Made by a program: the position numbers and the translations under genes. From assembly GCA_027061805.1 (NCBI GenBank), contig JAMOWA010000059.1, positions 124,001 through 188,000 of the forward strand: a stretch of DNA of 64,000 nucleotides. The letters are read 5' to 3'. Under the pieces are notes generated by a model. That model saw only the letters and a list, made by a program, of their open reading frames with translations. It did not search any database and had not been told where the DNA came from. Below are positions 1 through 2,029 of this stretch, in pieces. Source of the DNA: Thermoanaerobaculia bacterium. Its GTDB lineage: Bacteria; Acidobacteriota; Thermoanaerobaculia; Thermoanaerobaculales; Sulfomarinibacteraceae. Position 1 is the stretch's first letter; each line of letters begins with the position of its first letter.

Positions 1-2029
1 CGAAGACGTGGGGTAGATCGTCCTCGGGAACACCCGGCCCCGCGTCCAGCACCCGGACCATCACCCAGGGGGTTCCCTCGTGGACGATCCTCTGGAGCTG
101 GAGCTCCACCTCCCCGCCCTCGTCGCTGAACTCGATGGCGTTCTTCAGCACGGCCCGCAACGCCACGAACATGGAGGCCGCATCGCACCGGATGGCACCA
201 AGGTCCGAGGGGGCCCGCACGTGGACCTCCACGTGGCGCCCGTCGGCCAGCTCCCGGAGCGGAGTCACCACGTTCCTCATCAGCTCGGGAAGGGTGATCT
301 CGGTGATCTCGAAATCGGGAATGGCTCCCACCAGGACCCCGGCCTGGGCCACGCCCTCCATCATCTCCCCGAGCCGGTCGGCCTCCTCGCGGACGACCTC
401 CACCAGGCGCCGGGCCTTGGGCGAGACGATCTCCCCGGACCCCGCCAGGATGCGGGATGCCGTGACGAGCGAGCTCACCGGTTCCTTGAGCTCGGCGGAG
501 ATCCTGCCGATGAGGTCCCTCTTGAGGCTGTCGGTGGAGGCAAGCGCGGCGTAGGCCTCCTCCAGCAGGGCGTTCTTCTGGGTGAGCTCGGCGGCGAGCT
601 TCCGGACCTCGTCGAGGGTGTCCTCCAGCTCCCCGGTGCGCCGGGCCACCTGGTCCTCCAGGTCCCGGTTCGCCTCGGACAGGCGTTTCCACGCCACCGC
701 GTTGGCGTACACCACCGCCGCCGTGGAGGCGAGGACCGTGGCCAGCTGAAGGTCCTCCTCCTCGAGCTCCGGTCCGGAGGCACCGGCATAGGCCGTCAGC
801 ATCCCCGCCAGCCTCCCCTGCACCGGAAGGGGCACGGCCAGGCCGGAACGGTACCCTGCCCTCTCCAGGACCTCCTCCACCGGTTCCGGGTCTCCCTCTC
901 CGTCGGCCACCGTGACGAGACGCGGCTGCCTGTCCTCCAGGAGCCCCAGCGCCAGCGGCTCACCGGCCTCGTCGGTGGTGGCCAGCCACGGGTCTCTCGC
1001 CATGCCCCGGACGAGGGCCTCCTTGAGCTGGCCCGATCCCGGCACGAGCAGGACAGCCGCCGCCTGGACGTCCAGGAGACCGACCACGTCGTCAAGCAGC
1101 CGGCTGAAGACATCCTGGGGATCCCGCTCCTCTCCGGCGGCCCTGACGAAGTCGGACACTCCGCGGAGGATCCGGACCTTCCGCTCCAGCTGCTTCTGGA
1201 GCGTCTCCAGGCGCACGTTGAGGTCGGTCATGAGCACGTTGGCCCGGACCGCCTCCTCCACCAGGGCATCCCTGGTCAGGGTCTCTCCAGCGGCGGATGT
1301 GAGCTCGGGCTTGAGGATCGTGACGTGCTCCTCCGGAGGCGCGGTATCACGGTCCGTGGAGATCCTGGCCTCCACGAACGGCCGGAGGGCCGCCCGTGTC
1401 TGCTCCCGGAGGCGCTGCAGGACCGGCGTTCCCGTTCCGACCCCGAGCTTGTCGGCCACCGAGACCAGTGCGGCCTCTGTCACGGCGGCGAAGGCCTCCA
1501 TGACACCCTCACCGGTGATGGCCACCGAGGGGAAGGCGGACGCCCCCGTCACGTTGAGGTCCGATTCCATCTCGGCCACCGGGAGCACGTCGGGAAGGTC
1601 ACGCTTGTTGTACTGGAAGACCAGGGGCAGGTGCTCACTCTCGAGCCCGTTGGCGGCAAGATTCTCCCAGAGGTTCGCCAGGGACTTCACGTTGGCCTCC
1701 CGCTGGCTGGCCTGGGAGTCCGCCACGAACACGATGGCATCCGCCCCGGAGAGCACCGCCCGCCGCGTGGCGTTGTACTGCACCTGCCCCGGGACCGTGT
1801 AGAGCTGGAGGGCGAGCCGGAACCCCCGGATCCTCCCGAGCTCCAGCGCCAGGAGATCGAAGAACAGCGTCCTGTCCTGGGCTGTGTTCAGAGAGTACAG
1901 GCGGGTCCTCTGCTGGGGATCCGTCACGCGGTGGATGTGCTGCAGACAGGTGGTCTTCCCCCCGAGGGCAGGCCCGTAGTAGACCACCTTGATCTTGACC
2001 TGGCGGTACTGGTTGTCGAACTGCACCAT
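1..2029 (-). CDS. MglA-type GTPase fused to GAF and a histidine-kinase-like module (C-terminus cut by window edge)
   Basis: The frame stays open to the left edge, so the C-terminus is missing. It opens with a complete MglA-type small GTPase (about residues 10-190): P-loop GPALGGKT at 19-26, LYTVPGQ at 76-82 and NKRD at 141-144. After a linker come a GAF-like sensor (about 275-430), a coiled coil (about 435-500) and a kinase-like module. Its dimerisation helix reads ISAELKEP, placing Ala512 where the phosphoacceptor His normally sits. The ATPase part keeps an N box (LKNAIEFS) and a DAGPG G1 box. MglA GTPases set cell polarity in other bacteria. I infer a cytoplasmic GTPase coupled to a nucleotide-binding output domain rather than a working His kinase. 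GGGAG lies just before the ATG. Domain calls are firm; the role is not. Confidence 0.85.
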   Translation of the reverse strand, partial: MVQFDNQYRQVKIKVVYYGPALGGKTTCLQHIHRVTDPQQRTRLYSLNTAQDRTLFFDLLALELGRIRGFRLALQLYTVPGQVQYNATRRAVLSGADAIVFVADSQASQREANVKSLANLWENLAANGLESEHLPLVFQYNKRDLPDVLPVAEMESDLNVTGASAFPSVAITGEGVMEAFAAVTEAALVSVADKLGVGTGTPVLQRLREQTRAALRPFVEARISTDRDTAPPEEHVTILKPELTSAAGETLTRDALVEEAVRANVLMTDLNVRLETLQKQLERKVRILRGVSDFVRAAGEERDPQDVFSRLLDDVVGLLDVQAAAVLLVPGSGQLKEALVRGMARDPWLATTDEAGEPLALGLLEDRQPRLVTVADGEGDPEPVEEVLERAGYRSGLAVPLPVQGRLAGMLTAYAGASGPELEEEDLQLATVLASTAAVVYANAVAWKRLSEANRDLEDQVARRTGELEDTLDEVRKLAAELTQKNALLEEAYAALASTDSLKRDLIGRISAELKEPVSSLVTASRILAGSGEIVSPKARRLVEVVREEADRLGEMMEGVAQAGVLVGAIPDFEITEITLPELMRNVVTPLRELADGRHVEVHVRAPSDLGAIRCDAASMFVALRAVLKNAIEFSDEGGEVELQLQRIVHEGTPWVMVRVLDAGPGVPEDDLPHVF

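Follow-up and report, generated by a model that had tools for sequence, protein, structure and literature searches.

What kind of protein results when a Ras-like GTPase shares one chain with a sensor kinase that has lost its phosphoacceptor histidine, and how did such a protein arise? This question is raised by a gene at the left edge of a 64,000-nucleotide stretch of DNA (the window; G000:C59:124001-188000) from a member of the Acidobacteriota, order Thermoanaerobaculales. The gene is encoded on the minus strand and runs from its start at window position 2029 to position 2, and the open reading frame and its extension along the contig place 676 of its 729 codons inside the window (2..2029, -). 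Its last 162 bp (53 codons and the stop) lie beyond the window at G000:C59:123840-124001, with the end of the gene at C59:123840. The contig sequence completes a 729-aa protein (P0001) in one intact frame, interrupted by neither a stop nor a frameshift that would split the GTPase from the kinase part, a concern voiced in the initial annotation. A truncated or frameshifted gene is ruled out by the single open frame found here and in 29 further genomes. Immediately left of the window, and convergent with the fusion, lies a DUF4388 (PATAN-type) gene (L005:6998-8371, +), which is also seen in most members of the window's family.

The joining in one frame of an MglA GTPase to GAF and HisKA/HATPase-like parts, first proposed from the window's letters, is confirmed by Pfam, by the match to MglA and by fold. 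P0001 is ordered as MglA GTPase, coupling helix, GAF, signalling helix/DHp and HATPase_c. Pfam finds Arf (70-184), GAF (303-439, 1.3e-11) and HATPase_c (618-728, 9.8e-22), and a HisKA match at 503-558 stays below the cut-off (20.9 vs 26.9 bits). The MglA GTPase domain (residues 1-195; window 1445..2029, -) is defined by Pfam, sequence match and fold; its first 185 residues align with solved MglA at E 1.7e-51, and its model superposes on solved MglA at TM 0.83-0.89. This domain carries the P-loop GPALGGKT (19-26; 1952-1975, -), R53, TVPGQ with T78, Q82, and NKRD (141-144), of which Arg53 and Gln82 are catalytic residues of MglA (PMC6785124). It is followed by the coupling helix (251-293; LTRDALVEEAVRANVLMTDLNVRLE..., 1151..1279, -), delineated by conservation and profile, and by the GAF domain (303-439; 713..1123, -), delineated by Pfam and model. 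A continuous signalling helix and DHp hairpin (441-567; 329..709, -), recognised by the sub-cut-off HisKA match and the model, lead into the HATPase_c (CA) domain at residues 575-729, of which 575-676 are in the window (2..307, -) and F679/W680 and the G2 box (692-697) are outside it. The AlphaFold model has a mean pLDDT of 80 and a pTM of 0.39, and it also fits histidine kinase cores. At these values the individual domains of the model can be trusted and their relative arrangement cannot, and no GTPase-kinase contact is seen in the model at its low inter-domain confidence.

Having established the architecture, we turn to the site at which phosphotransfer would begin. By alignment, the H-box residue is Ala512 (codon GCC; 494-496, -) in the context ISAELKEP, at the position where HisKA kinases carry their phosphoacceptor His. 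The CA domain, recognised by Pfam and its conserved boxes, is intact throughout: N630 (140-142, -), the G1 residues D662/G664/G666 (Asp662 at 44-46, -), the F box and G2 (G692/G694/G696). The initial description of an Ala at the H box with N and G1 boxes preserved is thus correct, and it extends to the G2 box outside the window. Across 30 full-length homologues the P-loop, R53, T78, Q82, NK.D, N630, D662/G664/G666 and G692/G694/G696 are invariant. A second H box was sought among the conserved His residues of these homologues and none was found; only H33, in the GTPase, and H707, in the CA domain, are invariant, which rules out an alternative H box elsewhere in the fusion. These data bear on the idea that the protein still performs phosphotransfer through an acceptor residue of an unrecognised kind. 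The intact ATP site is compatible with this idea, but position 512 is A, S, L, N or D depending on the genus and the only conserved His residues are H33 and H707, and we regard it as highly improbable.

The fusion is present in 33 of 37 genomes of its order, Thermoanaerobaculales, over essentially its full length in 31; of the other two copies, one is ended by a contig edge and one is a shorter form. The partial contig-end copy in G035 was left out of the counts. A full-length fusion was not found in the other searched families of the class, and more diverged fusions occur in other classes of Acidobacteriota. Named relatives come from Thermoanaerobaculales and Candidatus Sulfomarinibacter and, more distantly, from Candidatus Polarisedimenticola, gp22, Holophagae including Geothrix, and Vicinamibacteria. 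Among 396 sampled Acidobacteriota genomes, 140 have a profile match at E 1e-75 or better; most of the profile is covered at about 24 places in this sample, and many of the other matches are longer MglA proteins with other modules.

Several of these more distant proteins vary the same theme. The Holophagaceae, including Geothrix, encode MglA-PAS-kinase-REC hybrids of about 790 aa (L080-L116), among which L081, L082 and L089 keep the His and lack the N-box Asn, and five of the REC-fused hybrids have Asn at the His position. In L160, L162 and L167 (Polarisedimenticola and other classes), the gene is part of a cluster of SpoIIE phosphatase, REC, MglA-kinase, a HisKA-like 305-aa protein and, in some, STAS, and in these clusters the MglA kinase is possibly tied to partner switching.

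Whether the His-to-Ala change is conserved among homologues, as the initial annotation asked, can be answered from these relatives. It is not a conserved family trait, since H, A, S, L, N and D all occur at the position. Of 16 sister-family sequences, 15 keep the His, the exception being L038 (Ser), whereas 12 of the 15 full-length members of the window's family carry A, S, L, N or D. The three that keep it are the early branches L036 and L015, together with L011. Distant relatives carry SHE(M/L) at the H box, indicating that the His is ancestral. The loss is derived, from a real kinase with a linked response regulator, and the window protein is a genuine pseudokinase variant, specific to its clade, of an MglA-sensor-kinase fusion that is otherwise conserved. 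Retention of His in most lineages had been named at the outset as a point against the pseudokinase reading; such retention is found in part, but it tells when the loss occurred and does not negate it.

The best tree places L011 among His-less genes, implying more than one His loss in the window's family. A single loss is disfavoured yet not rejected (AU p = 0.077). Separate losses are also favoured by the Leu CTC, Asn AAC and Asp GAC codons found in different genera, each of which is one step from the His codon CAC.

The presence of the His follows that of a response regulator (REC) encoded nearby. In 47 GAF-type fusions, the His is kept in all 26 with a linked REC vs 3 of the 21 that have none (Fisher p 3e-10, with kinship among the sequences disregarded). 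A tree-corrected test offers only 3-4 independent contrasts, all in the same direction or neutral, a number with which significance is unreachable. The PAS-type branch of the Holophagae fits this link in part: the His is absent in 6 of 6 proteins that have no REC and present in 19 of 24 with a fused REC. In the sister family, the locus comprises, on the same strand, a REC-HisKA-HATPase gene, the MglA-GAF-kinase gene, often a GAF-SpoIIE phosphatase gene, and a single-domain REC gene, the last of which is found at or near His-keeping genes. In distant classes, a phosphatase-REC pair lies directly upstream of the fusion, sometimes with a STAS gene downstream. The 4.0 kb upstream and the 9.8 kb downstream of the window fusion contain no REC. 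L011 and L015 keep the His and have no linked REC, which places the loss of the REC before that of the His; in L038 the REC, the second kinase and the His are all lost.

These neighbourhoods also inform a reading in which the His-less protein joins another histidine kinase as a heterodimer, in the manner of RetS-GacS, and either blocks that kinase or phosphorylates its His. A subunit that acts in trans would need an intact CA domain without an acceptor, as is seen here, and RetS is among the fold matches. However, the REC-kinase encoded beside the sister-family fusion has no counterpart in any window-family genome or in the genome of the His-less sister L038, and there is no conserved kinase gene beside the His-less genes. 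We therefore rate a heterodimer as distinctly unlikely.

A REC partner could also act from elsewhere in the genome. The window's own genome keeps a phosphatase-REC pair, relocated to C64, adjoining a pilin-like gene and a T2SSE ATPase, and genus g9 has the same arrangement. The REC at C64 retains its Asp, Thr and Lys, as would be expected if the His-less transmitter, like that of DivL, docks a phosphorylated REC and changes the MglA domain, with the signal running from REC to GTPase. DivL is moreover the top-scoring solved kinase-core sequence for the fusion (5e-21) and is also retrieved by fold. With the family profile, however, DivL is no longer the best match, and it binds ATP only weakly (PMC4211667), whereas the ATP motifs of the fusion are strictly conserved. 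Furthermore, such a reader cannot cover the whole clade, because the His-less members of genera g3, g5 and g6 have no REC above background in their genomes. Taken together, a DivL-like reader of a REC seems an unlikely account.

If the kinase half were merely a relic that holds the MglA domains as a dimer, its ATP site would be expected to vanish eventually. What appear to be later stages of such decay exist elsewhere. A relative in G006 (L147/L054) is shortened to 534 aa and has lost the GAF domain and the H box, with HATPase_c intact; in the Vicinamibacteria (L059-L073), MglA is joined directly to a transmitter-like part whose ATPase domain is unrecognised, with no REC nearby; and in L057 the CA/transmitter part is likewise unrecognisable. 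In the Thermoanaerobaculales, however, the ATPase motifs do not vary among His-less members, and dN/dS for the CA domain is far under 1 in His-less pairs (0.06-0.20, vs 0.08-0.20 in His-keeping pairs), which makes a relic improbable in this order. The GTPase is similarly constrained in His-less pairs (0.07-0.11). These ratios indicate that the ATP site of the His-less fusion is under purifying selection. Compared with the CA domain, the DHp evolves somewhat more quickly in His-less pairs, a weak sign of relaxed constraint on the phosphotransfer face.

We consider it somewhat probable that, once its phosphorelay was gone, the MglA-fused sensor kinase persisted as a predicted ATP-binding pseudokinase coupled to the GTPase. 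The initial annotation had suggested that an ATPase with no acceptor His serves a polarity switch or an allosteric output; a non-phosphorelay (allosteric) role remains the best reading, because the fusion is real, the His is gone and the ATP site is under purifying selection, although the His-to-Ala change is not family-wide. The ancestor was an MglA Ras-like GTPase mounted on a working, soluble GAF sensor kinase with a linked REC, often beside a phosphatase of the SpoIIE type. Within the window's family, its crown lost first the link to the REC and next the phosphoacceptor His, with the GTPase and ATP-binding sites retained. The present protein would then be a dimeric ATP-binding pseudokinase in which the coiled coil changes with ligand occupancy of the GAF domain and with the ATP state of the CA domains. 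This change, transmitted via helix 251-293, could alter the GTP/GDP state or partner binding of both MglA domains, and the coupling may also run in reverse, from the MglA domains to the kinase part. ATP could, alternatively, be bound merely for stability. The evolutionary account is well supported, and we infer the predicted ATP binding, the dimer, and the coupling to GTP turnover together with its direction.

The coupling helix is a natural candidate for passing movement between GTPase and coiled coil. Its consensus (LVxEAVRANxxMTDLNxRLD) is among the best-conserved stretches outside the domains, and its profile matches the corresponding segment of fusions from several classes of Acidobacteriota, whether their sensor domain is GAF or PAS or they have none, with matches in the more distant fusions that are weak and near noise level. 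The profile did not find the helix in the three other MglA proteins of the genome.

These other MglA proteins comprise one that is paired with MglB and two with long low-complexity extensions. The latter two (L007:4942-6897 (-) and L008:6121-8136 (+), at C53 and C26) have long Pro/Ala/Glu-rich extensions and a short strand-like C-terminal segment, and similar C-termini are seen in long MglA proteins of other classes (L083, L087, L108, L110 and L114). The genome also encodes pilus retraction and assembly ATPases, and pilin-like genes are found close to the sister-family fusion. Together with the pilin-like gene beside the C64 pair, these genes point to pili or surface motility as a likely, putative output, and no further. 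For the direct polarity switch suggested at the outset, the pointers are limited to the homology with MglA, the pilus ATPases and the pilin genes near the relocated REC/phosphatase pair, and it is no more than a candidate role.

The main signalling switches are Ras-like GTPases in eukaryotes and histidine kinases in bacteria, and both are found here in one chain. It is tempting to speculate that the fusion is a one-protein integrator, in which an ATP-binding kinase fold, no longer engaged in phosphotransfer, controls the GTP state of the Ras-like switch via the coupling helix, and that this arrangement originated repeatedly upon REC loss in Acidobacteriota. We hold this larger proposal tentatively and think it rather doubtful; if true, the histidine-kinase fold would serve as an inbuilt regulator of the GEF or GAP kind. 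Proteins that keep the acceptor His and proteins that lack it stand together on the tree, and they offer a natural series: His and REC both present, His present but REC absent, His absent but the ATP site present, and the ATP site absent. This series allows testing of whether a kinase fold can control a GTPase without phosphotransfer, and of how a pseudokinase originates.

In the open-access literature we found no description of an MglA-histidine kinase fusion, Acidobacteria included, which is weak evidence of novelty. Wuichet and Sogaard-Andersen (2014) placed 39 of 488 MglA-subclade sequences outside the small (<240 aa) class, and the consulted passages of this Ras-like GTPase survey do not describe a histidine-kinase fusion (PMC4316618). 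The fusion has the same GTPase fold and motifs (Thr78, Arg53, Gln82) as the Group 1 MglA of Myxococcus xanthus and Thermus thermophilus. That MglA, however, consists of one domain (about 195 aa) and is coupled to MglB, whereas the fusion is a 729-aa protein with a sensor pseudokinase; its own genome has an mglB-type roadblock gene at C18 beside another MglA, and none of its three roadblock matches is at the fusion locus. The conservons (CvnA kinase, CvnB roadblock, CvnD GTPase) also link an MglA-like GTPase to a histidine kinase within a single pathway, in which a GAF protein stimulates the kinase and CvnA8 keeps and uses His183 (PMC13343842). They consist of four separate genes, including CvnC, with a GTPase of another group, whereas the fusion combines kinase and GTPase in one chain. 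DivL of Caulobacter likewise has a kinase core without an acceptor His, which resembles that of the fusion in sequence and fold and has been repurposed as a regulator that reads a phosphorylated REC and binds ATP weakly (PMC4211667). DivL has Tyr in place of the His and no GTPase, whereas the fusion has intact ATP motifs and a GTPase. The closest known systems are thus the actinobacterial conservons, as separate proteins, and DivL.
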